From Aestuariivirga litoralis (GTDB lineage: Bacteria > Pseudomonadota > Alphaproteobacteria > Rhizobiales > Aestuariivirgaceae), in assembly GCF_015714715.1 (NCBI RefSeq), contig NZ_WAHS01000002.1, positions 496,001 to 560,000 on the forward strand: a stretch of DNA of 64,000 nt, in the 5' to 3' direction. This document shows, in pieces, positions 30,427 through 52,132 of the stretch (positions are counted from its first letter, which is position 1; each line of letters begins with the position of its first letter). Position numbers and translations under genes: made by a program. The notes beneath the pieces are model-generated. The model was not told the origin of the DNA and ran no database searches. It saw nothing but the letters and a program-made list of their open reading frames with translations.

Positions 30427-31452
30427 TTACAGCTCAACAGAGTTGCCCTCTTTTGCACTTTTCCTGGCTGCGTCCAGAACAGCTAGGACTCTTGAACCGG
30501 CTTCTGCAGTTACAGGAGGCGGTGAGCCTGTCCGCACGGCTAATTCAAACGATTCGTAATAGTCGTGATAACGTCCTTGAGCAGACGGGATTTGCGCCGC
30601 GCCGGCATATGTGTGCAGCGTTCCCCAGTTGGCCTCGGGTTCGAAACCCCAATACGCGAGATTGTCGATTGGCCGTTTGCCTGCCAAGATTGACTGCACC
30701 TGTACGTCGGTAGTCGATGACACGTAACTGCCTAGCGCGCCATAAGCTCGAAACTCGCGAGCAGCGATGTGATTCACTTTGCTCGCGGACACGTGGCTAT
30801 GCGCGCCGCTTTCATGCCTCAGGGTAATGTTAAAGCTGGCATCGGTCAGGCCGGCGGGTAAGTCGATAAAATCCATTTGCGCGTCGACTGAAGCAACTGG
30901 TCCAAGCAGAAAAAGCATCTGATCAACCACGTGGCTGCCTAAATCTCTCAGTAAGCCACCGGTCGGGCCGGGATCCAATGAACCGGGCTCGTCCAGATCC
31001 ATTCGAGAATAGACACTCCAGATTTTCCCGAGGCGCCCTGCTTCCACAAGCTGCGATAGAGTCTGCATGTCCGCATCGTAGCGCCGGTTGTGATAGACGC
31101 CTAAAACCACGCCTTTGGCTTTCGCTGCAGCATCAAGTTCAATTGCTCCCGTTGCGTCTGGGGCGAATGGTTTGTCCGCAACAACGTGCAATCCAGCAGC
31201 AATAGCCTCTAGTACCAATTCACGACGGGTCTGCGGTGGGGTGGTAACCGTTACTGCATCACAAACACCGGCAGAAATCATGGCAGCTAGACTTCGGAAA
31301 ATTGGCACATTCGGCCAATCTGCTTTGGCCGCCGCAATGGTTTCTGGTGCGCGCGCCACAATGCCCGATAATTCGCAATTGCGAGCCGCGGCTATGAATG
31401 GCGCGTGAAAGTAACGTCCTCCAGACCCATAACCTACGACGCCTATACGCAT
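30427..31452 (-). CDS. Gfo/Idh/MocA-family NAD(P)-dependent oxidoreductase
   Basis: This 341-residue protein has the N-terminal Rossmann motif MRIGVVGYGSGGRYFHAPFI, VTTPPQTRRE, the catalytic ADKPFAPDA (EKP-type lysine, here DKP) and GVYHNRRYDADM, and a C-terminal alpha/beta domain with LLRDLGSHVVDQ (the usual D/H pair). Members oxidise or reduce sugars and cyclitols. It is the last gene of the nine-gene minus-strand operon that starts at the substrate-binding protein (39274). It is more distant from IolG/MocA than the second copy at 42169. Probable role: dehydrogenase of an imported cyclitol or sugar derivative. Confidence 0.85.
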   Translation of the reverse strand: MRIGVVGYGSGGRYFHAPFIAAARNCELSGIVARAPETIAAAKADWPNVPIFRSLAAMISAGVCDAVTVTTPPQTRRELVLEAIAAGLHVVADKPFAPDATGAIELDAAAKAKGVVLGVYHNRRYDADMQTLSQLVEAGRLGKIWSVYSRMDLDEPGSLDPGPTGGLLRDLGSHVVDQMLFLLGPVASVDAQMDFIDLPAGLTDASFNITLRHESGAHSHVSASKVNHIAAREFRAYGALGSYVSSTTDVQVQSILAGKRPIDNLAYWGFEPEANWGTLHTYAGAAQIPSAQGRYHDYYESFELAVRTGSPPPVTAEAGSRVLAVLDAARKSAKEGNSVEL

Positions 31453-31523
31453 ATTCCAGCTCCCTGGCTCATGTTGAAGAAAATTCAGTCTTGATTATGA
31501 AATCAGCCACAATCCCGCACTTC

Positions 31524-32528
31524 CTACGAGTTGATTCGCTTTCTCTTCTTTTCCATTCGCGCATCAAGGGCCTCGTCTCCCGCTTCAGTTCCGTCGTGCC
31601 AGGTTCCGAAAATCTTGTCTAACGGGATCAGAGCATCACCGTAGTTCACCTCAAAATATTTGTGATGAAGGTAATGGGTATAGGCGTGTGTATCGATCGC
31701 AGCGCCATCGCTTTTAGTCTCAATTTTCTCGTAACCGATGTGCCCGACGATCGCACCAAGACCCGAAAACATGAGCGAGTACATGGCTAAGATGGGGTGA
31801 GAAGGGACCACAAGATGAATCAAGGCGGCCGAGAAGAACATCATCTGTTCAACCGGGTGCATGGACAGCGATGACCATGGGCTGGGATTTACGGAGTTGT
31901 GATGAATGGAATGCACATGCTTGTAGAAGAACGGCAGATGCAGAAAACGATGCCCCATATACCAATGTGTTTCATGCCACAACGGAATGAGCGCCCACAC
32001 CAAAACTAGCAGATAGGGATGATCCTGCAGTGTCGTCCAGTGCCCGAAACCATTGGCATAAGACCATAGGAGAAGCACCTCGTATGCGGTCCAGATCGGA
32101 ACTGCAGTCAAGAAAGTTCTCAACGCGCCCTCGATGGCCTGGCTTTTGAACCAAAAAACATCTGACTTCTTGTCGCCCGGAAATTGGCCGTTGTATTTGA
32201 ATTTGTTTCCCTGCGCCCGCTTCACATAAAGGCGAAGCTCAACCGATCCATACAGAATGAGAGCTGCTGCGCAGTTGCATAGAAAAATGAGCCCGATCCA
32301 CCCTGGAGCCAGTGTCTTCATGGTCGAGGCATCAGGAACCACCACAAACCACATGAAAACTGCAGTCGCAAACCAAGTAATGTTCCACGGGAAGAGATAC
32401 CCTTTCAGGAAACCAAGGATGGCACTTCCTTTCCAGGGAAATTGCCAGATCGGTGCAATTTCATTCTTGCGATTTGGCTTCCAATCTCCGCGCTTGTTGC
32501 GCGAGCCCAGCAGCATGTCGTCCATCAT
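31524..32528 (-). CDS. FA-hydroxylase / sterol-desaturase superfamily membrane di-iron protein, paralog 1
   Basis: This 334-residue protein starts MMDDMLLGSRNKRGDW, a signature shared by all three paralogs here, and has about four membrane helices. The histidine-rich di-iron motifs are HETHWYMGHRFLH, HSIHH plus HPVE, and HYLHHKYFEVNYG. The superfamily hydroxylates or desaturates lipids and other substrates at the membrane using O2 and ferredoxin- or cytochrome-borne electrons. Its place in a sugar/cyclitol transport operon makes a lipid substrate unlikely; an oxygenase acting on the imported compound is inferred. AGGAGAGA precedes the start (ATG 32528 or 32525). Confidence 0.85.
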   Translation of the reverse strand: MMDDMLLGSRNKRGDWKPNRKNEIAPIWQFPWKGSAILGFLKGYLFPWNITWFATAVFMWFVVVPDASTMKTLAPGWIGLIFLCNCAAALILYGSVELRLYVKRAQGNKFKYNGQFPGDKKSDVFWFKSQAIEGALRTFLTAVPIWTAYEVLLLWSYANGFGHWTTLQDHPYLLVLVWALIPLWHETHWYMGHRFLHLPFFYKHVHSIHHNSVNPSPWSSLSMHPVEQMMFFSAALIHLVVPSHPILAMYSLMFSGLGAIVGHIGYEKIETKSDGAAIDTHAYTHYLHHKYFEVNYGDALIPLDKIFGTWHDGTEAGDEALDARMEKKRKRINS

Positions 32529-32562
32529 TCTCTCCTAGCCAGATGGCGCTAAAACGGCGCGT

Positions 32563-33465
32563 TTATTTCCAATATTGATCAACGTAGCGCTGCATTTCCT
32601 TGCGCATGAAGCGCGAAGAATCTTCGGCCCGTTCTTCCCAGGCAAAAACGCAGGCGGTCATGATCCCATCGAATTTCACCTCGGCCAGGGTCTTGAAGAA
32701 GACATCCCAGTTCACTTCGCCCTGCCCCATGTCGAGATGCTGATGCACCGTGACTTTAGCGCCCGGTGGATTGACAATGTAGCGCAGCCCGGATGACGCC
32801 TTATGGTTCATCGTGTCCGCAACATGGACATGAGCTAATACTGATGCACTATCCCTGATCATCTGTTCCATGTTGTCGCCAAAATAAAATGTGTGTGGCG
32901 CGCAGTAGAGGAACTTTACGTTCTTCGAATTGACCATCTTGATCATGTCGATGGCCGGGTGCAGCGTTTCACACCAGTCTTCAGGATGCGGTTCGATATG
33001 AAGGTTTATGCCTTCCTTTTCGAACACAGGAACCAGCTCTTCCATCGAGCGCCACCAGGCGGCCTCGCTGGCCTCGACGGAATAGTGCCCGCCGCAGCAA
33101 TTGGAATGCGATGCACGATCCGGCGATGGCCCCCGGCCGAATTCCGAATTCATCACATTGCAATCCATCTCGACGGCAATTTCGATAGCCTTCTTCCAAT
33201 ACTGCACCGCCGCCTTACGCTCGTCCTCGTGCGGGCTGGCCCAGCGATACATCGGAAGAAGCGAAGCAAGCTTCACGCCGTGATCCTTCAGGGCCTTCTT
33301 GAACTCTTTCATGCGCTCCGGGTAAGCGCGCGGCTGCACCCACCAGGCCAGAAAATCCGGTCGCGGGCTGAGCTCGAGATATTCATATCCCATATCAGCA
33401 GCGAGACGAGGCAGTTCAGTCAAGCTGAGATGCCGATGCATATGAGGATCGAGGGCAATCTTCAT
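32563..33465 (-). CDS. TIM-barrel sugar isomerase/epimerase, IolH-like
   Basis: This 300-residue protein matches the IolH-like branch of the AP-endonuclease-2/xylose-isomerase TIM barrels: MKIALDPHMHRHLSLTELPR, MGYEYLELSPRPDFL, MNSEFGRGP, metal-site residues in LHIEPHPEDW, HVHVADTMNHKASSGLRYIV and HQHLDMGQGEVNWD. IolH proteins accompany inositol catabolism genes, although their reaction is not settled. The gene is three bases from the PanB-like gene upstream and is in the same operon, supporting a cyclitol pathway. Confidence 0.85.
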   Translation of the reverse strand: MKIALDPHMHRHLSLTELPRLAADMGYEYLELSPRPDFLAWWVQPRAYPERMKEFKKALKDHGVKLASLLPMYRWASPHEDERKAAVQYWKKAIEIAVEMDCNVMNSEFGRGPSPDRASHSNCCGGHYSVEASEAAWWRSMEELVPVFEKEGINLHIEPHPEDWCETLHPAIDMIKMVNSKNVKFLYCAPHTFYFGDNMEQMIRDSASVLAHVHVADTMNHKASSGLRYIVNPPGAKVTVHQHLDMGQGEVNWDVFFKTLAEVKFDGIMTACVFAWEERAEDSSRFMRKEMQRYVDQYWK

Positions 33466-33468
33466 GAT

Positions 33469-34281
33469 TCACGCGTGCTTTGTTTTTTCGAGAAGTTTCA
33501 GGAATTTTTCAAATTGGCCCGGCTGGGCCTGCGTGACTTGGGTTGCTTCCGGGAAGGCGCTGGTCTGCACATCGCCGTGGAATTCCTTGAAAGCCGCGAT
33601 GCGTTCATTTTGCAGCCGATCCATCTCCTTGGCGAAATTACGATAGACTTTGGCATGCTTTGGAATGTGGCCACGGGTTTCGCCCAGCACATCGCAGGTG
33701 AAGAGATATTGCGCATCGCAGCCGGTGCCCGAGCCCATTGAGATCATGAACAATGATGTGCGCTTCGAGATTTCCGCCGCAATGTCGGGCGGCACTACTT
33801 CGATCTCTACACCGAAGGCGCCGGCATCTTCGTAGCGGCGTACCAGATCCCAGACTTGCATGGCACTTTCAGCCGTCTTGCCTACGGCCTTGAAGCCGCC
33901 TGTCCATGAGGCTTTGGAGGGGATCAGACCAACATGGCCAATCACCGGAATGGCCTCATCAGCCAGTTTGCGAATGTTGCCGAAAGATGTAGGGCAATAA
34001 ACGGCATCGGCACCATGACGCATCGCCTGATACCCCCACCGCAAGAATCCATCCGGGGTGCCTTCATTGTCGTAAAGAGAGCGTCCGACGACTGCAAAGG
34101 TGGAAGGCGTCATCTGCCGGAAGCGCGGATCGGTGATGAACTCTGTGGCCACCGAAAGCATGTCAATGCCGGCTGCCTCGCAGGCGGCGATTTCATCCCA
34201 CGTGTCAATATGCAGCTTGGAATACTGATATTTTCCTTTGTTGGCGCGGATATCAGCGAGGGTCGGTTTCTTCTTGGCCAT
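33469..34281 (-). CDS. PanB-fold protein (ketopantoate hydroxymethyltransferase-like) lacking the PanB active site
   Basis: This 270-residue protein aligns with PanB over its length: IPVIGHVGLIPSKASWTGGF (PanB: VPVCGHLGLTPQSVN-type), AVGKTAESAMQVWDLVRRYE, a conserved EIEVVPPDIAAEIS helix and GHIPKHAKVYRNF. But the PanB metal-binding motif GDSLG is replaced by a segment reading SVATEF, the second Asp motif (ADLPF) is absent, and the KxEGG lysine region reads YCPTSFG. It therefore probably does another reaction of the PEP-mutase/isocitrate-lyase superfamily. Its position between MocD-like and IolH-like genes suggests a role with one-carbon or C-C-bond chemistry in cyclitol breakdown. Confidence 0.75.
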   Translation of the reverse strand: MAKKKPTLADIRANKGKYQYSKLHIDTWDEIAACEAAGIDMLSVATEFITDPRFRQMTPSTFAVVGRSLYDNEGTPDGFLRWGYQAMRHGADAVYCPTSFGNIRKLADEAIPVIGHVGLIPSKASWTGGFKAVGKTAESAMQVWDLVRRYEDAGAFGVEIEVVPPDIAAEISKRTSLFMISMGSGTGCDAQYLFTCDVLGETRGHIPKHAKVYRNFAKEMDRLQNERIAAFKEFHGDVQTSAFPEATQVTQAQPGQFEKFLKLLEKTKHA

Positions 34282-34298
34282 GATGTTTCCTGTTCGTA

Positions 34299-35387
34299 TT
34301 AGCCGCGCATGGCGGCGGGAAGAGGTGGAGTGGGCCGTGCCGTGGGCAACAGCTTGCGATGCACAAAGTGCTCAGGGTCTTTGCGTTGGCGCCACAGCGT
34401 GGGTATGATTTCGCGGTAGGCTGCAAGGAACCCGTTGTAGGGCGGCGCGCAATCATTCTTGATCTCGGCATGCAACTCCGGCAGCCGATGATAGGGCACC
34501 ATCGGGAACATGTGATGTTCCACGTGGTAGTTCATGTTCCAATAAACGAAGCGGCTGAAGGGGTTGATATACATGGTGCGGCAATTCAGGCGATGATCCA
34601 GCACGTCCTCGGCCAGGCCTATATGTTGCGTGAAGCCGGTCATCACCATGTGCCACGCTCCATACATGGCCGGCAGGCCAATCAGCATGACCGGCAGGAA
34701 AGAATGCAAGTAAAAACATGCTGCAATCACCACTGCATAGATTGCGGTCCAGACGCGGGCGACAAAGAATACCTTCGGCCATTCACCCTCGGGGATGAAA
34801 TCCTTCTCTGCATTAGTGAGGGTGCCGGAAGCATAACGCAGCATCGCCCACCACGCCTGCGGTACCATCAAGATGCCGAAGACATTGAGAAGGCCCTTGG
34901 CGATATCGGGTGGCCGCATGAGGATGATTTCCGGATCACGGCCCACAATGATCGTATCTGTGTGATGGCGAGCGTGCGACCAGCGCCAGACGGCGGGATT
35001 GCGCACGGTCAGGAAGCAGGCCAGCTGGTAAACAGCCTGATTCTTCCAAGAGGTCTTGAAGGCCGTGCCGTGCCCGCATTCATGCCAGCGGGAATCCCCA
35101 CCCGAGCCATAGAACACGCTGTAAATGATGAAGAAGGGCACGCAAGCCCATGTGCCCCAGAAATAGGTGGCAAGCCCTCCAGTGACGAGCATGGCAACAA
35201 TCCAGATGATGGTATCACGCGTGGCCGGGCCATCGGAACGCTGCATCAATTCTTTCATGCGCGCGCGAGGAATATCAGTCTTATACCATTCAGCATTGGC
35301 GAGACCGATTGTCTTGGCGCGCTCATTGAGCGGGCCTTCAAGGCTATAGTTGCGCGGGAATGCGGCGGCTGCAGTTTCAACGGTCAT
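34299..35387 (-). CDS. mocD: MocD-like fatty-acid-desaturase-family membrane oxygenase
   Basis: This 362-residue membrane protein has the three histidine boxes of the desaturase/AlkB superfamily: HECGHG (about 103), HARHH (about 138) and HVEHH (about 288), plus two hydrophobic hairpins. In Rhizobium leguminosarum, MocD (hydrocarbon-oxygenase-like), MocE (ferredoxin) and MocF (reductase) convert 3-O-methyl-scyllo-inosamine to scyllo-inosamine. Genes resembling mocE and mocF lie in the other minus-strand operon, at 43214 and 44411. A role in oxidative O-demethylation is therefore likely. GGAG precedes the ATG. The name is given by context and family; a lipid desaturase is less likely here. Confidence 0.75.
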   Translation of the reverse strand: MTVETAAAAFPRNYSLEGPLNERAKTIGLANAEWYKTDIPRARMKELMQRSDGPATRDTIIWIVAMLVTGGLATYFWGTWACVPFFIIYSVFYGSGGDSRWHECGHGTAFKTSWKNQAVYQLACFLTVRNPAVWRWSHARHHTDTIIVGRDPEIILMRPPDIAKGLLNVFGILMVPQAWWAMLRYASGTLTNAEKDFIPEGEWPKVFFVARVWTAIYAVVIAACFYLHSFLPVMLIGLPAMYGAWHMVMTGFTQHIGLAEDVLDHRLNCRTMYINPFSRFVYWNMNYHVEHHMFPMVPYHRLPELHAEIKNDCAPPYNGFLAAYREIIPTLWRQRKDPEHFVHRKLLPTARPTPPLPAAMRG

Positions 35388-35426
35388 GCTTCACTCCAAT
35401 GCGGAACGAGTTCGGGAAGAATTGGG

Positions 35427-36251
35427 TCACAAGTGGCTCCGTATATAATTAAACGAAGAGCGGAGCGGATCTGTTACGTCAGCGGCGGCATGGATGGCCG
35501 GAGAAAACGGCTCCATTGAGACAAAGCCCGCATAGCCGGCCGAGTAAAACGCCTTCAACATTTCAAGATTGCCGCAACGGTCAGCCACATCGACAAAGAC
35601 CCGGTCCGGCTCGGACAAGTCAAACGGTGCAAGATCGTCGCGCGTGATGCCGGAGATATGGACGAGACCGGTCAGCTCCGGCACCCACGGACCGTCAGAT
35701 GCGCGGAAATGTTGAAATGTATCGAAGCAGATTTGCAGCGCACCTTGGCCATCAACTTCACAAATGGCTTCGGCGGCCACCTGCTGGCTGTTCAATGTGC
35801 TGCCCTTCATACCTAGCGGTTCGACATAGCCAATAACGCCAGTATCGGTGGCAATCTTCTTGATAGCGTGCAGCGCCTCGCGCAGTTTGTGCGACAGCTC
35901 TGGCTTATTGAGACCGTGCGCTTCATCGACAACAGGGCACATCACGATACCTGGCGCTCCCAGTTCGGCCGCATAAGAGAAAAGGAACTTCGCTTCGGAT
36001 TCCCTCTCTGGCGTCCATTCATTGAAGCGCTGCAGTGCATTGATCGACGCAACACTTAGTCCCGCATCCGCGATCTTCCGGCACAATTCGGAGGCCTTCA
36101 TGCCGTCGGCAAATTCCTGGCCTTCAACATCATTGCGGATTTCAACGCCTTCGGCACCGACATTCCCGGCCAGAGCCAGAAAGGCATCAAGACTTAGACG
36201 CGGCGCCACCATGCGGTTGATTGCAAATTTGATATGTGTGGACGCGGACAA
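35427..36251 (-). CDS. TIM-barrel isomerase, MocC/IolO (2-keto-myo-inositol isomerase)-like, copy 1
   Basis: This 274-residue protein shares the pattern of the second copy at 43550: KFAINRMVAPRLSLDAFLAL, AEGVEIRNDV, INALQRFNEW, GYVEPLGMKGSTL, QICFDTFQHFRA, GLVHISGI and FVSMEPFSP. The E, D/H, H and E of the metal site are present. Relatives isomerise inosose, an intermediate of inositol or rhizopine breakdown. The start is an unusual TTG, with GAGGAAAG about 9 bases upstream; the next ATG would cut strand one. It is the fourth gene of the operon led by the transporter. Confidence 0.8.
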   Translation of the reverse strand: MSASTHIKFAINRMVAPRLSLDAFLALAGNVGAEGVEIRNDVEGQEFADGMKASELCRKIADAGLSVASINALQRFNEWTPERESEAKFLFSYAAELGAPGIVMCPVVDEAHGLNKPELSHKLREALHAIKKIATDTGVIGYVEPLGMKGSTLNSQQVAAEAICEVDGQGALQICFDTFQHFRASDGPWVPELTGLVHISGITRDDLAPFDLSEPDRVFVDVADRCGNLEMLKAFYSAGYAGFVSMEPFSPAIHAAADVTDPLRSSFNYIRSHL

Positions 36252-36296
36252 AGACTCAAACTTTCCTCAGGGATTGATACGCCAACCATGTAGGCC

Positions 36297-37112
36297 TTAG
36301 GTGCGGATGACGTGATCGGTGACTTCTTCGATTGTTGTGTCTTCCTTACGCGCCTCGAACACTTTTTTGCCATGGCTCATCACAACGAAGCGGTCACAGA
36401 CCATGAAGGCGTGGTAGAGGTTGTGCGTCACAAGAACGCTGGATGTGCCTTCTTTCTTCAAGTCACGCACATAGGCCAGCAGATGTTCTGTTTCACGGAC
36501 CGAGAGGGCCGAAGTGGGTTCATCAAGCAGCAACATCTTGCGCTTGAAATGCACCGCACGAGCGATGGCAACGGCCTGCTTTTGACCGCCAGAGAGGAAT
36601 CCGACTTCCTTGCCAGGGTCATCGATGCCGGAAATCTGGACAGCGCTACCGAGAATATCGATAGCCACTTCCTGCATTTTGGCGTGGTTCATAAAACCCC
36701 AGCGGTTGGTGATCTCACGGCCCATGAAGATGTTGCGGGTGATCGACATTGAATCAACCAGAGCGATGTCCTGATAGATGGTTTCAATGCCGGCCGCTTC
36801 GGAGTCGCTACGATTGCGAATCTCTGTTTTCTTGCCGTCCACGTAGATTTCGCCCGATGTCGGCGGATTGATGCCAGAGATCATCTTCACCAAAGTTGAC
36901 TTGCCGGCGCCGTTGTCGCCGAGCAAACCTACAACTTCATTGTGGCCGATATGGAAATTCATGTCATTGAGCGCAATGAAAGAGCCATAGCGCTTCGTGA
37001 TGTTGCGTGCTTCGAACAAAGGCACTTCCGTAGGCTTCTCACCCCGGATGGGCTTGTCAGCCGGGATGTGTACGTCGGCTTTGGGTTGGCGGAGTTTCTG
37101 AGCGGTTTTCAT
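36297..37112 (-). CDS. Sugar ABC transporter ATP-binding protein (CUT2, single-domain)
   Basis: This 271-residue protein has Walker A GDNGAGKST, signature LSGGQKQ, Walker B LLLDEPTSA and the H-loop VTHN. It contains one nucleotide-binding domain, unlike the fused two-domain RbsA, as in FrcA-type fructose importers. About 30 extra residues precede the domain. It works with the permease at 37123 and binding protein at 38285 to import a sugar or cyclitol. Confidence 0.92.
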   Translation of the reverse strand: MKTAQKLRQPKADVHIPADKPIRGEKPTEVPLFEARNITKRYGSFIALNDMNFHIGHNEVVGLLGDNGAGKSTLVKMISGINPPTSGEIYVDGKKTEIRNRSDSEAAGIETIYQDIALVDSMSITRNIFMGREITNRWGFMNHAKMQEVAIDILGSAVQISGIDDPGKEVGFLSGGQKQAVAIARAVHFKRKMLLLDEPTSALSVRETEHLLAYVRDLKKEGTSSVLVTHNLYHAFMVCDRFVVMSHGKKVFEARKEDTTIEEVTDHVIRT

Positions 37113-37122
37113 ATGCGTAACC

Positions 37123-38205
37123 TCAACCCTTGGTACGGCGGATGGCCGTGTTCATGATGACTGCGATAACGATCAGGGCTCCCACGAACATGTCAAAGTA
37201 AAAGGCGGGAGCGCGCAGGAGAAGCAGCACGTCCTGGATCGTGAAGACGAGACAAGTGCCGAGCACGATACCGAGAATGGAACCCCGGCCACCGGTGAGA
37301 GCTAGACCTCCGATCACGCAGGCTGCGATGGTTTGCAATTCCATGCCCAAACCACCGCCTGGCTGAATGGAGCCGACGCGCGTCGCCGCCACAACCCCTG
37401 AGAATGCCGCCATGAAACCGGCAATGGCGAATGCGATCGTCTTAGTCCGTGCCGGATTGATGCCGATCGCAACAGCGGCATTGCGATTGCCGCCCACAGC
37501 ATAGAAATGATTGCCGAGCTTGTGGTGGTGAAGCAGAAAGTAAAAGACAACTGAGAATAGAGCGAACCAGATGATCGAAGAATGGATCACGCCGACATTG
37601 CCAATCTGCAGAACGCTGCTGTCAAAAAGAGTTGCAAAGGGTTCGTTGGGCTTAAAACGAAGTGCCGATGCGCCATGAACCAGCAGCGTTGTGCCCTTCC
37701 ACAACAGCATGCCACCGAGCGTGGTGATAAAGGATGGGATGGCAAAGCGTAGCGTGATGAAGGCGTGGAAAATTCCGATCATAGTGCCCAGAGCCAACGC
37801 AATGGCGAGGCACAGGAAAGGTGCCCACCAATTCGAGGGATCGGCTGCAATGTCGCCGCCCAGATAATTGCTGAGATCAGCACAGATGATGGAGAGCAGC
37901 GAATATTGTGCGCCGACCGACAAGTCATACTCACCCGCAACCATGAGCACGCCAACACCCAAGGCCATGATACCGGGGACAGCGATTGATTTCAGGGTGA
38001 CCGCGATATTGGCCGGGATCAGATAGCGGAATTCTTCAGGGAATATGAGAGCGCCTATGATGCAGATGACCTGCACAAGGACAAACATCACGGCAATACC
38101 GCCCTCAGGCTTGTCTCTGACCCAATCAGAAATTTTCGTAAATAGAGGCCGCGTGGCCCGTGCCGCCACGGCTTGGCGGATATGGTCTGACTGGTTGTGT
38201 GACAT
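37123..38205 (-). CDS. Sugar ABC transporter permease (CUT2, RbsC-like)
   Basis: A membrane protein of about 360 residues with eight or more helices and the family motifs GEYDLSVGAQYSL, TLGGMLLWKG, GGNRNAAVAIGIN and GGLALTGGRGSILGIVLG (EAA-like coupling segment). ATG 38205 (MSHNQSD) is preferred over TTG 38217, since GGGG lies six bases before it. It sits between the binding protein and the ATPase gene, the usual order. Confidence 0.92.
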   Translation of the reverse strand: MSHNQSDHIRQAVAARATRPLFTKISDWVRDKPEGGIAVMFVLVQVICIIGALIFPEEFRYLIPANIAVTLKSIAVPGIMALGVGVLMVAGEYDLSVGAQYSLLSIICADLSNYLGGDIAADPSNWWAPFLCLAIALALGTMIGIFHAFITLRFAIPSFITTLGGMLLWKGTTLLVHGASALRFKPNEPFATLFDSSVLQIGNVGVIHSSIIWFALFSVVFYFLLHHHKLGNHFYAVGGNRNAAVAIGINPARTKTIAFAIAGFMAAFSGVVAATRVGSIQPGGGLGMELQTIAACVIGGLALTGGRGSILGIVLGTCLVFTIQDVLLLLRAPAFYFDMFVGALIVIAVIMNTAIRRTKG

Positions 38206-44410: not shown

Positions 44411-45616
44411 CTATCCCTTCAGTAGCGATTTGATTTGCACAGCTGGATTCGCGAGCGCATCGGGGCTTGGCTTCATGCCTTTGGCAATCATCATCTCAGA
44501 CAGCTTGATGTCGCGCGCAATCGCATTGCCCACGCCAATGCCACTGACGCCCATCAGGGTGCCATCGTCGGCCAAATGGAACAGGATCAGGGAACTCTCA
44601 GCTGGGCGGCGCTCCACCACATGAGGCCCCATATCAGGCATGCCCGCAATCTGCAGTGAAAGATCATGCTGGTCTGACCAGAACCAAGGAATTGCGGCAT
44701 GCGGCTTTCGCTCGCCCAGCATGTTAGCAACTGCGGTATCCGCCTGATCCTGAGCATTGCGCCATGCCTCAAGCCTAACGCGCCGCGCTCCAAATCCAGT
44801 GTGTATGAAGGAGCAGCAATCTCCAGCGGCGTAGATATCCGAGTCGGAAGTTTGCATCTCACTGTTGCAGGCGATGCCATTTTCGATCTCAAGGCCAGCC
44901 TCCTGGGCCAGCCTCACTTCGGGAGCGGCGCCGATGCCGGCGATGATCGTGTCCGCCTCGATCACACGGCCATCCTTCAGCACGACCGAATTTTCACCAA
45001 TCTCAGCGATAGCCGTGCCGATCAGAAGCTTGATGCCAGCAGCGAGATGCCGGTCATGAACAATTCTGGCAATTGCCTCGGGCACGCCGCGCATCAATAT
45101 GCGTGGCTGCGCCTCAATAAGTGTAACCTTGCAGCCCAGTTTGGCGGCTGATGAAGCAAGTTCAAGACCAATAAATCCGCCTCCGATGATCACGATTGAT
45201 TTTTCCGGCAGGAACCGTCGGCGCAAATCCAACGCATGGCCGTGGTCGCGCAGGATCACTGCATGAGGCCCGAGACTGCGAGGCTTTGCACCCGTGGCAA
45301 TCAGTAATTTGTCATAAGGGATTGAAGTTCCATCACTGAGCAGAACTTGTTTTGCCGCGCGATCAATCCGGTCCGCCGCAAGGCCCAGCCGCGCGTCGAT
45401 ATTGAGAGATGCCAGCGTGTCCGGTTGAATAAGCCATATGGGATCAGGATCACCGCTGTCAGTGACCGAAGCTTTTGAAAGTGGTGGCCGATCATAAGGC
45501 AGCACTGCTTCTTCGGAGATCAGCGTCACTGGTCCCCGATAATCGGAGGCACGAAGGCTGACGCAGGCTCGCGCAGCTGCCATTCCTCCACCAATGATGA
45601 CTATTCCAGCCGCCAT
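44411..45616 (-). CDS. mocF: FAD/NAD(P)-dependent ferredoxin reductase, MocF-like
   Basis: From ATG 45616 (MAAGIVIIGGGMAAARACVS) the protein has about 401 residues: FAD motif GGGMAAA, LPYDRPPLSK, ATGAKPRSL, NAD motif IVIIGGGFIGLELASSAAKLG, YAAGDCCS, and a reductase C-terminal domain with WFWSDQHDLSLQIAG. This is the ferredoxin reductase layout of Rieske-ferredoxin oxygenase systems. With MocE in the same operon it should feed electrons to MocD and perhaps to the three FA-hydroxylases. It leads the operon and is divergent from the second transporter's binding-protein gene. Confidence 0.9.
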   Translation of the reverse strand: MAAGIVIIGGGMAAARACVSLRASDYRGPVTLISEEAVLPYDRPPLSKASVTDSGDPDPIWLIQPDTLASLNIDARLGLAADRIDRAAKQVLLSDGTSIPYDKLLIATGAKPRSLGPHAVILRDHGHALDLRRRFLPEKSIVIIGGGFIGLELASSAAKLGCKVTLIEAQPRILMRGVPEAIARIVHDRHLAAGIKLLIGTAIAEIGENSVVLKDGRVIEADTIIAGIGAAPEVRLAQEAGLEIENGIACNSEMQTSDSDIYAAGDCCSFIHTGFGARRVRLEAWRNAQDQADTAVANMLGERKPHAAIPWFWSDQHDLSLQIAGMPDMGPHVVERRPAESSLILFHLADDGTLMGVSGIGVGNAIARDIKLSEMMIAKGMKPSPDALANPAVQIKSLLKG

Positions 45617-45774
45617 ACGACTATCTTTCTCTGCCTTGGAAAGCACAGTGGCTATCAGGTCAATGGCTTCGCAACCAGTTTTGGTTTGATTGAAAACCAT
45701 CAAGTCCGATGTTGCGTCTGGTTTGGAATAGATGTTCTACGTCTGGTCGGTGCAGTAGTAAAAGCTCAGAAGAA

Positions 45775-45784: not shown

Positions 45785-45900
45785 ACCCGGGGAAGAAATT
45801 GACCCAATTGGCATGCGCGAATGATTCACGCTGTCCAAAACGGCAAGCCAATCCCTACGCCATGAATCGATCACAAGACGCCAACCAGGAGGGAACTGAC

Positions 45901-46878
45901 ATGAATTCCAAGAAAATATTGATGACCGTTGCGGCGACCGCAGCTTTGTTTGCAGCGGGCGCTTCGGCTGCCGTGGCGGGTGCCACCATCGCAGTGATTG
46001 GCGGCAAAACCGATGACGCCTTTTTCGCCAAAGTGAAAAAAGGTATTGATGATGGCGCACTTGTGGCGAAGGCTCATGGCAGCACGGTGAGCTATCTGCA
46101 ACTGCAGACCTATGACAATATTGGCGGTGATGCTGCCAATCTGGTTCGCACCGCAATTTCTCAGAAAGCCACTGTCATTGCGGTTCCAGATTGGGTTCCC
46201 GATTCAGAGGACGAAGCGATCAAGGCCGCTCAGGCCGCTGGCATCCCTGTCATTCTGTTCAACGCAGGTGGCGGCGACAAGGCCAAGGAATTGGGCGCCA
46301 TCAACTATGTAGGTAATGAAGAATATCCCGCTGGCGTTGCGGGCGGCGAGCACTTCACGGCTACAGGCTCAAAGAATGTGATCTGCGTCAACACCGTCCC
46401 AGGCGCACAAAACCTCGAAGATCGTTGCAAAGGTATTGCCGACGGCATTGCAAAGGGTGGCGGCAAGTCCACCCAGCTGCCTCTGCCAGCAAGTTCATTT
46501 GGCAATCCCACCGCCGTTGCCGAAGCCATCAAGGCAACCTTGCTGAAGGACAAGACCATTGATGGCGTAGCAGCGATTTCCGCCGCGGACGCAGACAGTG
46601 CAGCTGCCGGCATCGAACAAGCTGGTGGCACCGGCAAGATCCTGCTCGGCTCTTTTGACATGAACGAAGCCGGCCTCGAGCGCATCAAGGCTGGAACGCA
46701 GTCTTACGCGATTGATCAACAACCTTGGCTACAGGGCTTCCTGGCGGTGACTTTGGCAGACGGGTTCGTCAACTATGGTCTCAAGCTTGCATCAGCCCCC
46801 ATCCTCACGGGCCCCGGCGTTGTCGACAAGACAACGATTGATGCGACCTTGGCTGGCGCGAAAGCCGGCTATCGCTGA
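45901..46878 (+). CDS. Periplasmic sugar/cyclitol-binding protein of ABC transporter (CUT2), copy 2
   Basis: From ATG 45901 (GGAGGG 7 bases upstream) the protein has 325 residues: signal peptide MNSKKILMTVAATAALFAAG (cleavage near AVA-GATI), then GATIAVIGGKTDDAFFAKVKK, a type-I periplasmic fold with VPDWVPDSEDEAIKAAQAAG, NYVGNEEYPAGVAGGEHF, CVNTVPGAQNLEDRCKGI and YAIDQQPWLQGFLAV. It differs clearly from copy 1, so the two importers probably carry different compounds. Adjacent mocF and isomerase genes suggest a MocB-like cyclitol-binding role. Confidence 0.9.
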   Translation: MNSKKILMTVAATAALFAAGASAAVAGATIAVIGGKTDDAFFAKVKKGIDDGALVAKAHGSTVSYLQLQTYDNIGGDAANLVRTAISQKATVIAVPDWVPDSEDEAIKAAQAAGIPVILFNAGGGDKAKELGAINYVGNEEYPAGVAGGEHFTATGSKNVICVNTVPGAQNLEDRCKGIADGIAKGGGKSTQLPLPASSFGNPTAVAEAIKATLLKDKTIDGVAAISAADADSAAAGIEQAGGTGKILLGSFDMNEAGLERIKAGTQSYAIDQQPWLQGFLAVTLADGFVNYGLKLASAPILTGPGVVDKTTIDATLAGAKAGYR

Positions 46879-46894
46879 TACCGTTAACTCCCCT

Positions 46895-46922: not shown

Positions 46923-46994
46923 AATTTCTGCAGCGTGATCCTCTCATTTATTGAATTCCGCGAGAATTTTGCAACCTCGAAACCGGAGAGCTCC

Positions 46995-48014
46995 ATGGAA
47001 AAGTTGACGCGGCCACTTTCTTTAGGCGGCCTCTTGCGTAAACCTGAGACAGGTTCGTTTCTGGGCCTGCTGACCGTGTTCATTTTCTTTACGATCTTTG
47101 GCGGCGCAAACTTTTTTTCCGCAACCGGCGCTGCCAGCTGGCTGAACGTTGCCGCATCACTGGGCATTATTGCCATTCCCATTGGCCTGCTGATGATTGC
47201 AGGCGAACTCGACATTTCGATCGGATCACTCATTCCCGCAGGATCAATGACCGTCGCCATCATTTCAGGACATTTTGGCATCTCCATCATCGTCGGAATA
47301 GCTGCCGCCCTCGCGGTTGGTGCCATTGTCGGATTCATCAATGGTGTGCTGGTGGTTCGAACGGCGGTTCCTTCATTTATTGTAACGCTGGGGACGCTCT
47401 TTGCAGTGGCCGGCCTGGTGTTGGGGCTGTCCGTGATCCTCACTGGTACGACCAGCGTGGCACTCAAGGCTCCTCCAGAGGCAAAATGGCTCCTTGGGCA
47501 CTTCATCGGCGGCGCCTATCAGGTAATCATCCTGTGGTGGGTGGTCATCGCACTCGCCTTCGCATTCGTCTTGCATGTTTCTCACTATGGCAACTGGATT
47601 TTCGCTATGGGCGGCGACAAAGTGAGTGCGAGAAACGCCGGTATCCCTACCGAACGGCTTACCATCATTCTTTTCATGTGCAGTGGAGTCAGCGCAACGT
47701 TCGTGGGACTTTGCCAGGCCATCCTTTATAACAGCGCGCAGGTCTCCGCGGGGCAATCCTACATCTTCAACGCCATCATATCTGTGGTCGTTGGGGGCGT
47801 TCTGCTCACGGGCGGATATGGATCGGTGTTTGGCATTGTGCTGGGAACGCTGACCTTCGCCATCGTCAATCAAGGTATTTACTACACGGCCTTTGATGCC
47901 AATTGGGCTAGCCTGATCATCGGCGTTTTGCTGCTGCTCGCTGTCTTGATGAACAACACCTTCCGTAGACTTGCGCTGGCTTACGCACCGGCCAAGGGAA
48001 AGACCGCAAAATGA
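46995..48014 (+). CDS. Sugar ABC transporter permease (CUT2, RbsC-like), copy 2
   Basis: From ATG 46995 (MEKLTRPLSLGG; GGAGAG upstream) the protein has about 339 residues with eight or more helices and motifs GELDISIGSLIPAG, VTLGTLFAVAGLV, MGGDKVSARNAGI and GGVLLTGGYGSVFGIVLG. Its last codons overlap the ATP-binding gene by four bases (ATGA). It forms the membrane channel of importer 2. Confidence 0.92.
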   Translation: MEKLTRPLSLGGLLRKPETGSFLGLLTVFIFFTIFGGANFFSATGAASWLNVAASLGIIAIPIGLLMIAGELDISIGSLIPAGSMTVAIISGHFGISIIVGIAAALAVGAIVGFINGVLVVRTAVPSFIVTLGTLFAVAGLVLGLSVILTGTTSVALKAPPEAKWLLGHFIGGAYQVIILWWVVIALAFAFVLHVSHYGNWIFAMGGDKVSARNAGIPTERLTIILFMCSGVSATFVGLCQAILYNSAQVSAGQSYIFNAIISVVVGGVLLTGGYGSVFGIVLGTLTFAIVNQGIYYTAFDANWASLIIGVLLLLAVLMNNTFRRLALAYAPAKGKTAK

Positions 48015-48829
48015 CCCAGCCCCTGCTCAGGTTGACCAACGTCAACAAGTCCTTCGGGCCCATCGACGTTCTGCATGATATTTCACTGGATGTTCATGCC
48101 GGAGAAGTCTTGTGCCTGCTCGGCGACAATGGCGCCGGTAAATCAACATTGATCCGTATTCTTTCCGGGAGTCACGCCCCAACATCCGGAACCGTTTCCA
48201 TGAGTGGAAGCGCTGTGGTCTTCAATAGCCCTCGCGATGCCAGCAGGGCGGGCATTGCCACTGTGCACCAGTTCGGCGGGACATTCCCCCTCATGAGTAT
48301 CGGCCGTTCTTTTTTTGTTGGCGAAGAACCCAAAAAGGGATGGGGGCCTTTCAAGCGCTATGACCGTTCTCGAGCAAATGAAATCGCCGTCAAGGCCGTG
48401 CGTGAGCTGGGGATCACCCGCATCACCGACGGGGACCGCCTCGTGGGTGGCCTTTCGGGTGGTGAACGGCAGGCTTTGGCGATCGCACGCGCAGTCCACT
48501 TTGGCGCAAGCGTGCTCATTCTGGACGAACCAACTGCCGCCCTTGGCGTGAAAGAAGCGGCACATGTGCTGCGCATCGTGCTGCAGGCCAGGCAGCGGGG
48601 AATCGCGGTTATTTTTATCACCCACAATGTCATTCATGCGCTGACCGTGGGTGACCACTTTGCTGTTTTGATCAAGGGCGCCAAAGCTGCGGATTTCCGC
48701 AAAGGAGAAAGGTCACGCGAAGAAATCACCGACTTGATGGCCGGCGGCGAACACATGGCTGAACTCGAAGCCGAAATTGCCACCTACATGTCCGCCAATG
48801 AGGGCCATCCGCCTTCAGTGAGCGGTTGA
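48011..48829 (+). CDS. Sugar ABC transporter ATP-binding protein (CUT2, single-domain), copy 2
   Basis: This 272-residue protein has Walker A GDNGAGKST, signature LSGGERQ, Walker B LILDEPTAA and the H-loop ITHN. Like the first importer's ATPase it carries a single nucleotide-binding domain. It overlaps the permease gene and is followed by FA-hydroxylase 3, 85 bases away on the same strand, so the hydroxylase is probably part of this operon. Confidence 0.92.
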   Translation: MTQPLLRLTNVNKSFGPIDVLHDISLDVHAGEVLCLLGDNGAGKSTLIRILSGSHAPTSGTVSMSGSAVVFNSPRDASRAGIATVHQFGGTFPLMSIGRSFFVGEEPKKGWGPFKRYDRSRANEIAVKAVRELGITRITDGDRLVGGLSGGERQALAIARAVHFGASVLILDEPTAALGVKEAAHVLRIVLQARQRGIAVIFITHNVIHALTVGDHFAVLIKGAKAADFRKGERSREEITDLMAGGEHMAELEAEIATYMSANEGHPPSVSG

Positions 48830-48914
48830 ACATCAATCTCTGCCTGGATTCACGGATTGTGCATCCATGCCGAATGCACACGATGCCCTCCAAAATGCAC
48901 CTCGGAGAACCAAA

Positions 48915-49916
48915 GTGGACGATTTAAGATTCGGAACGCGAAACAAGCGAGGCGACTGGGCGCCGAAGGACAAGCTGGAGACCGCACCCCTGTTTGTCTT
49001 TCCACCCCGTCCTCTTAAATTTTTGAAGTGGTTGCCGGGCTATTTCTACCCTTGGAACCTGCTGTTCATGGCTCTGGCCGCTCTGACGTGGTTCTATCTT
49101 ACGCCCAGTGTCGAAACATTGAAGACCTTGGCTCCCGGCTGGGTTATCTTTCTGCTCGCGCGCAATAGCGCACTTGTTTTGATCATCTATGGCCTTCTGG
49201 AGTTGCGCCTCTATATTAAGCGCGGCCAGGGAAGTAATTTCAAATATAACAGCAAGTTCCCTGCAGAACAGCCGAGCGATGTGTTCATGTTCAAAAGCCA
49301 GAACATTGACAATATCATCAGGACATTCGCAACAGGCATTCCCATCTGGACCGCCTATGAAGTGCTGGGCCTGTGGGCCTATGCCAACCACATCGGGCCA
49401 TGGGCCACTTTTGCAGAGCATCCTTATTGGCTGGTATTTTTTGGCCTCGTGATTCCTATCTATCACGAGTTCCATTTTTACTGCATTCACCGCCTCATTC
49501 ACTTTCCCCTGCTCTACAAATACATCCATTCCGTGCATCACAATTCGGTCAATCCAAGCCCCTGGTCATCATTGTCGATGCATCCGATTGAGCATCTGCT
49601 CTATTGGTCAGACTCACTCATCCATCTCATACTTCCCTCCCATCCCCTCTTGTTCTTGTACGGCCTGCAAGTCACTGGAACGGGGGCGGTCGTCGGCCAC
49701 GTCGGTTTTGATAAGATAGAGGTTGGCGACGCAGGCGGCATCGACACGCATGCTTATGCCCACTATCTGCATCACAAGTATTTCGAAGTGAACTATGCCG
49801 ATGGCACCACAGCGCTGGATAAACTATTCGGCACTTGGCATGACGGCAGCAAGGAATCGCAAGCCCAAATGGAAGCGCGCTACGAAAAGAAAGTCGCCAA
49901 GATAAACCAGAAATGA
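48915..49916 (+). CDS. FA-hydroxylase / sterol-desaturase superfamily membrane di-iron protein, paralog 3
   Basis: Starting at GTG 48915 (GGAGA 6 bases upstream) the protein reads MDDLRFGTRNKRGDW, aligning exactly with the N-termini of paralogs 1 and 2; the ATG at 48867 has no Shine-Dalgarno. It has about 333 residues, about four helices, FKYNSKFPAEQPSDVFMFKS, and histidine motifs HEFHFYCIHRLIH, HSVHH, HPIE and HYLHHKYFEVNYADG. It lies directly downstream of transporter 2, mirroring paralog 1, which lies in the transporter 1 operon. The substrate is inferred to be the imported compound. Confidence 0.85.
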   Translation: MDDLRFGTRNKRGDWAPKDKLETAPLFVFPPRPLKFLKWLPGYFYPWNLLFMALAALTWFYLTPSVETLKTLAPGWVIFLLARNSALVLIIYGLLELRLYIKRGQGSNFKYNSKFPAEQPSDVFMFKSQNIDNIIRTFATGIPIWTAYEVLGLWAYANHIGPWATFAEHPYWLVFFGLVIPIYHEFHFYCIHRLIHFPLLYKYIHSVHHNSVNPSPWSSLSMHPIEHLLYWSDSLIHLILPSHPLLFLYGLQVTGTGAVVGHVGFDKIEVGDAGGIDTHAYAHYLHHKYFEVNYADGTTALDKLFGTWHDGSKESQAQMEARYEKKVAKINQK

Positions 49917-49940
49917 TTGCGGGACGCGGTCAAGTACCCG

Positions 49941-50915
49941 TCAGTGGTAGTAATTCCGGACCCAAGTATGAGCCTGTAGCTGAGCTTTAAGTTCAGCGGG
50001 AAAGACTTGGCCGCCACAATAGGCGATATTCATGTCGACTTCCCTGCGGTTCTTCATTCCCGGGATAAGCGTCGAGAGTTGAGGTTCCGACAGGACATAA
50101 CGCATGGCTGCTTCGGCCAGTGTTGAATAGTAGGGTTTGCAAAGCGTCTTCAGAGCTTCCACACGTCTCAAAGTCTCGCCGAAGCGCTCTCCTCTGAACA
50201 TGTTGTGCTGTTGCGAGCCAGGCTCGAAGTGCGAGTATGAATCCGATACCCAGTTGCCAACCAACGAGCCCGAATCCAGGGGCACGCGCGCAATGAAGGC
50301 GCTGTTTGACTTCTCTCCAGCGGGGAAAAGCCGCTGAGCGGGGCGCTGCTCAAACATGTTGAAAATAACCTGGTAAGAGTCAACAAGTCCGTACGCGGCC
50401 GCATCAAGGGCCTCATCAGGCTCATTATCGCGCAATGAAACGCCTATCCGGTCAATTTTTCCTTCGCGCGTCAGCTTGTGGAGCGTTTCAAGCCAGTCAA
50501 GCTCGACCATGGCCGAAGCCATGAAACTGTGCATTTGGTAGAGGTCAATACGCTCTACGCCCAGACGCTTCAGCGAGCGTTCGACATTCTCGCGGAGGTA
50601 CCATTCCGGAAAGCGGCCACGCATCTGTGGTGCAGCATCATCAGGTCGCGGCCACTGTATTGGACGTACTTTGGTGGCCACATAGATCTTCGAACCTGTC
50701 CAGGTTTTCAGTGCCTGGCCGATCACCTCTTCGGAATGTCCATTTCCATATAGTTCTGCGGTGTCGACAAAATTCACGCCTTGGTCAAAAGCGTAGTGGA
50801 GCGTGTCAATGGAGTGGGCATCATCGACCTGCCCCCAATCACCGCCGAGCTGCCATGCGCCAAATCCAACTTCGCTGATCTGCCATCCGGCCCGGCCAAA
50901 ACTACGATAGCGCAT
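49941..50915 (-). CDS. Aldo/keto reductase family protein
   Basis: This protein (about 324 residues) starts MRYRSFGRAGWQISEVGFGA and carries the catalytic tetrad: Asp and Tyr in FVDTAELYGNGHSE, Lys in VATKV, His in DLYQMHSF; NADPH-site residues lie in YVLSEPQLSTLIPGMKN. ATG 50915 is preferred over the TTG one codon before. It is downstream of the LacI-family gene on the same strand. It may reduce or oxidise an inosose-type intermediate; the substrate is not shown by sequence. Confidence 0.9.
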   Translation of the reverse strand: MRYRSFGRAGWQISEVGFGAWQLGGDWGQVDDAHSIDTLHYAFDQGVNFVDTAELYGNGHSEEVIGQALKTWTGSKIYVATKVRPIQWPRPDDAAPQMRGRFPEWYLRENVERSLKRLGVERIDLYQMHSFMASAMVELDWLETLHKLTREGKIDRIGVSLRDNEPDEALDAAAYGLVDSYQVIFNMFEQRPAQRLFPAGEKSNSAFIARVPLDSGSLVGNWVSDSYSHFEPGSQQHNMFRGERFGETLRRVEALKTLCKPYYSTLAEAAMRYVLSEPQLSTLIPGMKNRREVDMNIAYCGGQVFPAELKAQLQAHTWVRNYYH

Positions 50916-51020
50916 CAATTTTCGAACCTCACACCTGCATGACCCCAGCAGCCAATCTCCACCAAGCAGATTTGCGCTTCGGTCAACAGCGCATTCGAAT
51001 AGAATTTTGATGGTTTTTAA

Positions 51021-52070
51021 TCAGGCGATTTTGGCCGGCTCTACGGCAGTGAATTCGGTCATGTTTTCCAAGCAGTGAAGCTTGAAAGCGATGTTCGAAC
51101 GGTAAGGTGCCTCAAGCCAACGATGATCCGTGTAACCGAAATGGTGCAAGAGAACGTCAACCGCAAAGCGAGACTGATGCTCAGGATTTTGATCAATCAC
51201 CAAAGTCATAAGGCCCTCCTGCAAAAGTTGCCGAGATTCTGGCGTCAGTTCATGACCGATGAAAATGGGGTGCTCATGCTTTTCGGTCTGCCTTAGCACT
51301 GCACCCACGGCATCATTTGCAGCTCCAACATTATAGATACCCACAAAATCTGTCCGCCCCTTAAGGGCAGAAATTAGGAGAAATTCAGATTTTCTGGAAT
51401 CATCGCCCCCTTCTAAAACGGCGGCTATCTCCAGGGAACTGTTGTGCAATGCCAGCGCGTCTCTAAATCCTTGCATGCGTCTGGCATGGCCAAGAACTTT
51501 TTGGTTATGGCAGAGAATTGCAACAGCGCCTGGCGATCTTGCCATTTTCGCCATGAAGAAACCTGACGTCCTTCCAGCTTCGTAATGGTCAGGGCCAGCA
51601 TATGCCAGGCGAAGTGAAGACGGAATATCGGATATTATAGTGACGACTTGCACACCCCGCGCATGGACTTTGGCGATTGCGTTGGAGATCATCTGATCAT
51701 CCATCGGATAGATGATCAGTCCATCAGCTTTTGTGTCAGAAATTGCCTTTGAAATCACTTTGGGATCATCTGTTTTGAGAATAGTGCGCTGAACGATCAC
51801 GGAGCGATCCATCCGTTCTGAGAGTCTGCCGAATTCGTGCTTCATGCGTGCTATAAGTGGCAGTTCGGCACGAGCCAGCAAAACTTCAATCCGCAACACA
51901 CGGCGATGGGTAGTCGGTAAAACGCGTTTGAGTTTCAGACGCCGCGCCGCACTCAACACCTTTTCGAGAGTCTTTTGGCTGACATTTCCACGTTCGTTCA
52001 ACACCCGGTCAACTGTCGCTGTCCCGACGCCGGCCAGTTTAGCAATGTCCTCGACTTTGTGTTTGATCAC
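51021..52070 (-). CDS. LacI-family transcriptional regulator
   Basis: The protein has an N-terminal LacI HTH (KVEDIAKLAGVGTATVDRVL, NERGNVSQKTLEKVL) and a periplasmic-binding-protein-like effector domain (IEVLLARAELPLIARM, GLIIYPMDDQMI, LAYAGPDHYEAGRTSGFFMA, DFVGIYNVGAAND, LVIDQNPEHQSRFAV). GTG 52070 has AAGG 8 bases upstream; GTG 52109 lies inside a palindrome that looks like an operator, so the shorter start (349 residues) is preferred. It probably senses a sugar or cyclitol and controls the aldo/keto reductase, itself and perhaps transporter 2. Confidence 0.85.
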   Translation of the reverse strand: MIKHKVEDIAKLAGVGTATVDRVLNERGNVSQKTLEKVLSAARRLKLKRVLPTTHRRVLRIEVLLARAELPLIARMKHEFGRLSERMDRSVIVQRTILKTDDPKVISKAISDTKADGLIIYPMDDQMISNAIAKVHARGVQVVTIISDIPSSLRLAYAGPDHYEAGRTSGFFMAKMARSPGAVAILCHNQKVLGHARRMQGFRDALALHNSSLEIAAVLEGGDDSRKSEFLLISALKGRTDFVGIYNVGAANDAVGAVLRQTEKHEHPIFIGHELTPESRQLLQEGLMTLVIDQNPEHQSRFAVDVLLHHFGYTDHRWLEAPYRSNIAFKLHCLENMTEFTAVEPAKIA

Positions 52071-52107
52071 CTGATTGCCTTGCAAACAATTTTTCTTATT
52101 CGGCGAC

Positions 52108-52132
52108 ACGCGTAAGCGCGTCGCGTATGCGT
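52108..52132. promoter_or_regulatory. Candidate LacI-type operator, autoregulatory
   Basis: This 25-base imperfect palindrome (ACGCGTAAGCG, central CGT, CGCGTATGCGT) sits just upstream of the chosen LacI-family start. Ten bases of one half (GCGTAAGCGC) recur at 45775-45784. LacI-family repressors often bind such odd-centred palindromes with a central CpG. Binding is inferred. Confidence 0.45.

Follow-up and report, generated by a model that had tools for sequence, protein, structure and literature searches.

A 64,000-nucleotide stretch of the Aestuariivirga litoralis genome (contig NZ_WAHS01000002.1, positions 496,001 to 560,000; here called the window) holds a locus of about 22 kb, at window positions 30427-52109. 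This locus is real. It combines demethylation of the mocDEF type with inositol breakdown, as a variant of unusual richness. Its gene content suggests that it probably serves the catabolism of O-methylated cyclitols, such as pinitol, ononitol, bornesitol or similar compounds. Two parts of the locus look new: the replacement of the oxygenase MocD by hydroxylases of another family (PF04116, here FAH), and a protein family that resembles ketopantoate hydroxymethyltransferase (KPHMT, the PanB enzyme) and is here called PanB-like.

The evidence for the substrate class comes both from single proteins and from linkage. One dehydrogenase of the locus, gfo2, passes the cut-off of the inositol 2-dehydrogenase family IolG. 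The TIM-barrel protein tim3 has 2q02 and 4hgx as its nearest solved structures, and 2q02 is, we take it, STM4435 of the Salmonella inositol island. In a PDB search, both sugar-binding proteins have as their best solved relative 4ru1, which is called a verified myo-inositol transporter in a passage of PMC10747050. Linkage to iol genes is found three times: in another locus of the same genome (L098; L, G and C numbers are our handles for loci, genomes and contigs), on a plasmid of Rhizobium leguminosarum Vaf-108 and on a plasmid of Rhizobium sp. Q54. Methylated cyclitols are thus the best-supported substrate class as judged from sequence, and the demethylation of such compounds, proposed earlier in a sequence-only reading of the window, still appears the likeliest role.

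All reading frames of the locus were read, giving 22 genes. Pfam was run on all 22 proteins, and NCBIfam on the 18 other than the two permeases and two ATPases. Every part named in the sequence-only reading lies where that reading had placed it: two complete CUT2 importers, MocD, MocE, a MocF-like reductase, two Gfo/Idh/MocA proteins, PurU, and GntR-FCD and LacI regulators. That reading understated the locus, and the PanB-like gene and an aldo-keto reductase gene were not named in it. Block A runs leftward in the order binding protein 1, permease, ATPase, tim2, mocD, PanB-like, tim1, fah1 and gfo1, preceded by the gene of the GntR-FCD regulator. In the middle, fah2 points rightward, and the reductase, tim3, mocE, iolG (gfo2) and purU point leftward. 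At the right end, binding protein 2, permease, ATPase and fah3 run rightward, and the aldo-keto reductase and LacI regulator leftward. The genes are as follows.

30427..31452, minus strand: gfo1, Gfo/Idh/MocA dehydrogenase (Pfam PF01408; best solved relatives 3fhl and YvaA, 3gdo)
31524..32528, minus strand: fah1, PF04116 di-iron hydroxylase (Pfam 72.3 bits, cut-off 31; conserved His columns)
32563..33465, minus strand: tim1, xylose-isomerase-like TIM barrel, weakly IolO-like (Pfam; NF041099 50.4 bits, below the cut-off of 300)
33469..34281, minus strand: PanB-like protein, lacking the presumed KPHMT metal ligands (PF02548 121.3 bits; alignments; structure model)
34299..35387, minus strand: mocD, FA_desaturase-type di-iron oxygenase (Pfam 126.1 bits; conserved His columns)
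35427..36212, minus strand: tim2, TIM barrel, 35% identical to tim3 (Pfam; BLASTP)
36297..37112, minus strand: CUT2 ATPase 1 (Pfam)
37123..38205, minus strand: CUT2 permease 1 (Pfam)
38285..39274, minus strand: binding protein 1, inositol/rhizopine-type (NF052284 120.6 bits, below the cut-off of 420; best PDB match 4ru1)
39376..40080, minus strand: GntR-FCD regulator, not MocR (Pfam; NF052281 28.5 bits, cut-off 650)
40232..41248, plus strand: fah2, PF04116 di-iron hydroxylase (Pfam 65.0 bits, cut-off 31)
41253..42140, minus strand: PurU, 10-formyltetrahydrofolate deformylase (TIGR00655 330.9 bits, cut-off 285.95)
42169..43158, minus strand: gfo2, inositol 2-dehydrogenase, IolG (TIGR04380 438.7 bits, cut-off 355)
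43214..43528, minus strand: mocE, Rieske-type ferredoxin (TIGR02377 172.2 bits, cut-off 136.15)
43550..44347, minus strand: tim3, TIM barrel like 2q02 and 4hgx (Pfam; PDB E 1.8e-34 and 1.7e-34)
44411..45700, minus strand: mocF-like ferredoxin reductase (Pfam Pyr_redox_2 and Reductase_C; 42% identical to the reductase beside mocDE on the Q54 plasmid)
45862..46878, plus strand: binding protein 2, inositol/rhizopine-type (NF052284 164.1 bits, below the cut-off of 420; best PDB match 4ru1)
46935..48014, plus strand: CUT2 permease 2 (Pfam)
48011..48829, plus strand: CUT2 ATPase 2 (Pfam)
48867..49916, plus strand: fah3, PF04116 di-iron hydroxylase (Pfam 72.6 bits, cut-off 31)
49941..50915, minus strand: aldo-keto reductase (Pfam 194.8 bits; 77% identical paralogue in L099, a FAH/MocE locus of the same genome, by BLASTP)
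51021..52070, minus strand: LacI-family regulator (Pfam)

Two groups of genes can be described more closely than before. The genes earlier described as extra di-iron genes encode three FA_hydroxylase proteins, which share 52-58% identity with one another. Three TIM barrels are present as claimed, and only their pairing has to be changed: one had been called IolH-like and two MocC/IolO-like, while tim2 and tim3 are the two that resemble each other and tim1 leans only weakly to IolO.

One closely related known system is the rhizopine operon set mocCABRDEF of Sinorhizobium meliloti L5-30, with which the locus shares MocD, MocE, a MocF-like reductase, a cyclitol context and presumed O-demethylation. 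A passage of PMC10107442 lists mocDEF, mocR, mocBA and mocC as the rhizopine transcription units and, as far as gene names rather than sequences tell, does not name PanB there; genetics cited in the same source places mocDEF within rhizopine catabolism. The A. litoralis locus differs in having neither a MocR nor a rhizopine-binding protein (MocB) over its cut-off, and in the addition of three FAH genes, PurU and the PanB-like gene. That it breaks down true rhizopine (3-O-methyl-scyllo-inosamine) is hardly credible. MocD, MocE and the reductase are there, the latter only MocF-like, and among NCBIfam models the rhizopine one gives both binding proteins their highest score; against this, the two proteins reach only 29% and 39% of its cut-off score, the regulator is of the GntR-FCD type, and aminotransferases are absent from all 22 proteins by Pfam. 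Rhizopines are also called rare in nature in a passage of PMC6668481. The aminocyclitol branch of the sequence-only reading falls with these results, and rhizopine was rejected as a label for the locus.

Another related system is the iol operon for myo-inositol. IolG, inositol-type TIM barrels and a CUT2 importer are common to both. The difference is that in A. litoralis the 22 genes include neither iolC nor iolD, which are encoded at other places in the genome, and that oxygenases precede the pathway. Legumes and other plants contain methylated cyclitols, pinitol among them. According to a passage of PMC8730688, pinitol passes through the symbiosome membrane of Lotus. A search of the open-licence PMC literature for pinitol catabolism genes gave nothing on point, and the rhizopine genes were the only bacterial demethylation genes it found for methylated cyclitols.

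A pathway can be proposed from these parts. The two CUT2 importers would take up O-methylated cyclitols. MocD and the three FAH proteins, fed by the MocF-like reductase through MocE, would then hydroxylate the O-methyl group, and the unstable hydroxymethyl ether would fall apart into free cyclitol and formaldehyde. Alternatively, its one-carbon unit would pass to tetrahydrofolate with the help of the PanB-like protein. The cyclitol would be oxidised by the IolG-type and Gfo dehydrogenases, pass to the TIM-barrel isomerases, and enter the iol pathway, whose genes lie elsewhere. The one-carbon unit would be oxidised as a folate adduct, from which PurU would release formate.

The candidate oxygenases belong to two families, FA_desaturase (MocD) and FAH, both membrane di-iron types. 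Thirteen columns of MocD are His in all 15 aligned proteins; in FAH, 11 columns are His in all 11 aligned proteins and a further three in 10 of the 11. The locus has four candidate oxygenases (MocD and three FAH) to one ferredoxin and one reductase, and we infer that all four share this single electron chain.

FAH and MocE are found in one locus, with no MocD in reach, in six cases (L012, L019, L096, L099, L110 and L111). In two of these, L012 and L019, a PanB-like gene is present too, and next to it and MocE no oxygenase other than FAH was found. Genes of close FAH relatives recur near MocE, LacI/DeoR or CUT2 genes in the A. litoralis loci, in L012, L024, L110 and L111, and on the Vaf-108 plasmid. 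In several loci, then, FAH takes the place that MocD has next to MocE, and its close group probably represents a second type of demethylating oxygenase. Only this close group is claimed, since distant FAH relatives sit in other surroundings. The FAH of L099 is a borderline case at 43% identity and was counted in because MocE lies in the same locus.

The PanB-like protein keeps the fold of PanB, with an altered active site. An AlphaFold2 model built with 26 sequences has a mean pLDDT of 82.3, with residues 119-130 and 202-213 poorly predicted. Its 28 best PDB matches are all KPHMTs (Foldseek probability 1.00, TM 0.71/0.74 to 3vav_B, rmsd 6.4). In E. coli numbering, we take D45, D84 and E114 to be the metal ligands of KPHMT, K112 its substrate lysine, and E181 its catalytic Glu. 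D84, K112 and E114 are absent in all 29 PanB-like proteins aligned and D45 in 28 of them (L129 aligns an Asp), whereas both true PanBs in the alignment have all four. H136 and E181 are kept in 29 of 29. Compared with PanB (3vav, 1m3u), the likeness thus lies in the fold, the His and the catalytic Glu, and the difference in the loss of the presumed metal ligands and Lys and in the frequent company of oxygenases. The protein also misses the curated PanB cut-off (TIGR00222, 93.3 bits against 207.55). By these tests it would not be a pantothenate enzyme, yet it is conserved, with many invariant columns across the 26 sequences. The A. litoralis genome has a separate gene for a true PanB.

The neighbours of PanB-like genes were surveyed in two ways. 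When 84,980 species genomes were searched for relatives of the PanB-like protein, 510 stretches encoding one came up, and the best 80 of them were treated as named loci. These 80 are not independent, because 55 are from Mesorhizobium. Within 6 kb of the PanB-like gene, MocD was found in 74 of the 80, MocE in 70, PurU in 14, a reductase in 12, an IolG-like gene in 8 and FAH in 3; MocD or FAH was present in 76. L011 and L020 have MocE only, and L015 and L037 neither an oxygenase nor MocE. PurU lies within that distance of the PanB-like gene in L111 as well.

The second survey covered 17 PanB-like genes, in 16 of 17 loci (L132 was left out, as no PanB-like frame was called there). Across the analysis, frames in high-GC loci were taken from a codon-based caller, and L147 and the L154 region (the same as L110) were read by tblastn. 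Among 91 neighbours up to three genes away are 7 FA_desaturases, 5 PhyH proteins, 3 Rieske-oxygenase alpha subunits, 2 TauD proteins and at least 1 FAH (L117), or 18 of 91; Rieske, PhyH and TauD oxygenases are of types other than membrane di-iron. Of 149 farther neighbours 146 were scanned, and the matches listed include 3 FAH and 2 PhyH; with up to about 6 more that may stand beyond those listed, this gives 5 to 11 of 146. The Fisher p for enrichment near the PanB-like gene lies between 5e-5 and 5e-3. A catalytic oxygenase stands within three genes in 10 of the 16 loci (L117, L129, L131, L134, L136 and L138-L142), of which L117, L140 and L141 come from one genome. In L111 MocE is two genes away and FAH farther off, and L130 is cut by a contig end. 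No oxygenase was recognised near the PanB-like genes of L133, L135, L137 and L143 among the 25 commonest of 103 families.

The oxygenase company is of several kinds. PanB-like genes adjoin PhyH Fe/2-oxoglutarate oxygenases in L138, L140, L141 and L142, and L140 has two of each back to back. In L134 and L136 (G259 and G030) a PanB-like gene and MocD lie near a Rieske oxygenase, with a glutamine-synthetase domain protein as well in L134, and in L131 (G028) the same pair is beside an OpuAC betaine-type binding protein. L131, L134 and L136 are possible N-demethylation versions.

What the oxygenase families near PanB-like genes can share is the removal of methyl groups as formaldehyde, which is established for several members. 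For this reason, and because PurU is present in some loci, the PanB-like protein may be the partner that catches the released carbon. It would move the hydroxymethyl group of a hydroxymethyl ether (or amine), or released formaldehyde, onto tetrahydrofolate, so that free formaldehyde is avoided. The full proposal is that the PanB-like protein is a dedicated one-carbon partner of MocD, FAH, Rieske and PhyH demethylation and that the close PF04116 group is a second class of cyclitol O-demethylase replacing MocD; it is put forward tentatively, as somewhat doubtful. The open-licence PMC literature gave nothing on point for PanB-like proteins with MocE or demethylases, nor for the residues of KPHMT.

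The A. litoralis genome (3,325,940 bases, four contigs) contains 3 MocD, 5 FAH, 4 MocE over the cut-off, 4 PanB-like proteins and one true PanB, and 2 IolD over the cut-off. A single PurU, of three matches, passes its cut-off, and it lies in the locus. Four more loci of the same kind (L096, L097, L098 and L099; G000 C1) each have their own regulator and CUT2 genes. The iol part of L098 consists of iolC (323.7 bits, cut-off 300), iolD (807, cut-off 715), an IolE-like gene (167.5, cut-off 290) and an iolB-like fragment cut by the end of the stretch (100.3, cut-off 205); the rest of it holds a regulator, a TIM barrel, IolG (425.1, cut-off 355), PanB-like, mocE, mocD, a second regulator and CUT2 genes. 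L096 has LacI, FAH, CUT2, a TIM barrel, mocE, PanB-like and IolG (432.8), and no MocD. The IolG proteins of L096 and L098 are each 82% identical to gfo2. L097 has a regulator, CUT2 genes, a DUF4432 protein that passes its cut-off, MocD and PanB-like, and L099 has DeoR, FAH, an aldo-keto reductase, a creatininase-family protein that passes its cut-off, mocE and CUT2 genes. The Thermotoga IolM/N/O pathway was considered for this creatininase-family protein, and a literature search gave nothing on point. Among ten intergenic stretches of the five loci no 16-mer was shared (15 of 16 matching) and palindromes occurred in only two; promoter-like and terminator-like matches were about as many as in shuffled sequence.

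Plasmids of other rhizobia carry parts of the same set. In R. johnstonii 3841 and S. meliloti, mocD, mocE, the reductase and PanB-like genes stand in a row. On the Vaf-108 plasmid (NZ_CP018236.1), annotated iolE/iolD adjoin counterparts of the block A importer, tim1, FAH and MocD that are 60-91% identical; tim1 itself is 89% identical to L007 and 67.6% to Vaf-108. This cassette differs in having another Gfo protein and an RpiR regulator, and no match to PanB-like, mocE or PurU was found in the 31 kb read. On the Q54 plasmid mocDEF adjoins an iol operon, and the 25 kb read there gave no match to PanB-like.

In an even sample of 289 genomes of the class, A. litoralis included, FAH-like proteins occur in 17 (E <= 1e-40), MocD-like in 21 (E <= 1e-30), MocE in 12 (E <= 1e-35; 10 over the cut-off) and PanB-like in 16 (E <= 1e-40). 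As each is found in so few genomes, their grouping in 22 kb by chance is unlikely. Excluding A. litoralis and ignoring kinship, PanB-like proteins are present in 5 of 11 MocE genomes (Fisher p 7e-5), 7 of 20 MocD genomes (p 1e-5) and 4 of 16 FAH genomes (p 0.006). Of these last four, the two genes are close together only in G117 and G161, and are far apart or on different contigs in G022 and G120.

Several observations weigh against these interpretations. For the cyclitol substrate, the stretches read of L097 and L099 contain no iol gene, L098 has an IolE that does not reach its cut-off, and iolD lies outside the window. The IolE shortfall leaves our estimate unchanged, because iolC, iolD and IolG of L098 pass. 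L097 also fits the idea that the substrates are O-methylated monosaccharides (methyl hexoses or pentoses of algal or plant polysaccharides), since it joins MocD and PanB-like to a DUF4432 protein. CUT2 importers, Gfo/Idh/MocA and AP_endonuc_2 proteins serve ordinary sugars too, and an aldo-keto reductase suits aldose chemistry. Methyl sugars are an unlikely substrate all the same, given an IolG over the inositol cut-off, the iolD linkage in L098 and two named plasmids, and binding proteins nearest to an inositol-binding protein.

The PanB-like partner is not needed everywhere, because MocD and MocE occur without it: no PanB-like gene is near them in L147, L148, L149, L151, L153 and the Q54 plasmid, none matches genome-wide (E <= 1e-40) in G056, G178 and G247, which have the two together, and in G222 (C45) and G084 (C189) it is on other contigs. 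For some PanB-like genes the surroundings contain no oxygenase. Relatives that share 35-40% identity may differ in role, and methylene-tetrahydrofolate also forms without an enzyme. Since PanB-like genes stand beside betaine-type and other neighbours too (L131 and L134), the module is not specific to cyclitols.

For FAH, 16 of 19 regions from other genomes (L112-L116 and L118-L128; 32-44% identity over the 19) have no MocE, MocD or PanB-like match, and FAH could act on a lipid. The FAH proteins might then be lipid or hopanoid hydroxylases whose position next to an inositol operon is fortuitous, with the PanB-like gene a pantothenate gene in decay. The annotation of PF04116 as fatty acid hydroxylase and the missed PanB cut-off agree with this. 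It is nevertheless quite improbable, as genes of the close FAH group are found repeatedly next to MocE, LacI/DeoR or CUT2 genes, and the invariant columns of the PanB-like protein speak for conservation rather than decay, with the true PanB encoded separately.

If the proposed roles of FAH and the PanB-like protein hold, the genes would form a marker set for the trait of methylated-cyclitol demethylation and add a second class of oxygenase to it. A widespread family annotated as a pantothenate enzyme may then instead capture formaldehyde, a toxic by-product.

Some minor features were also seen. An aromatic amino acid lyase family gene lies downstream of the PanB-like gene on the opposite strand in 44 of the 80 named loci (in L077 at 11688-13169, PF00221, with relatives in the others). 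Just left of the A. litoralis locus, at window 27250-29104, lies an open reading frame that combines a weakly ParB-like N-terminus with a DNA methylase domain. A DUF5681 protein comes next, and these are possible mobile-element remains at the locus border. Farther left, window 3599-13230 holds two very long open reading frames of 1157 and 2053 amino acids.

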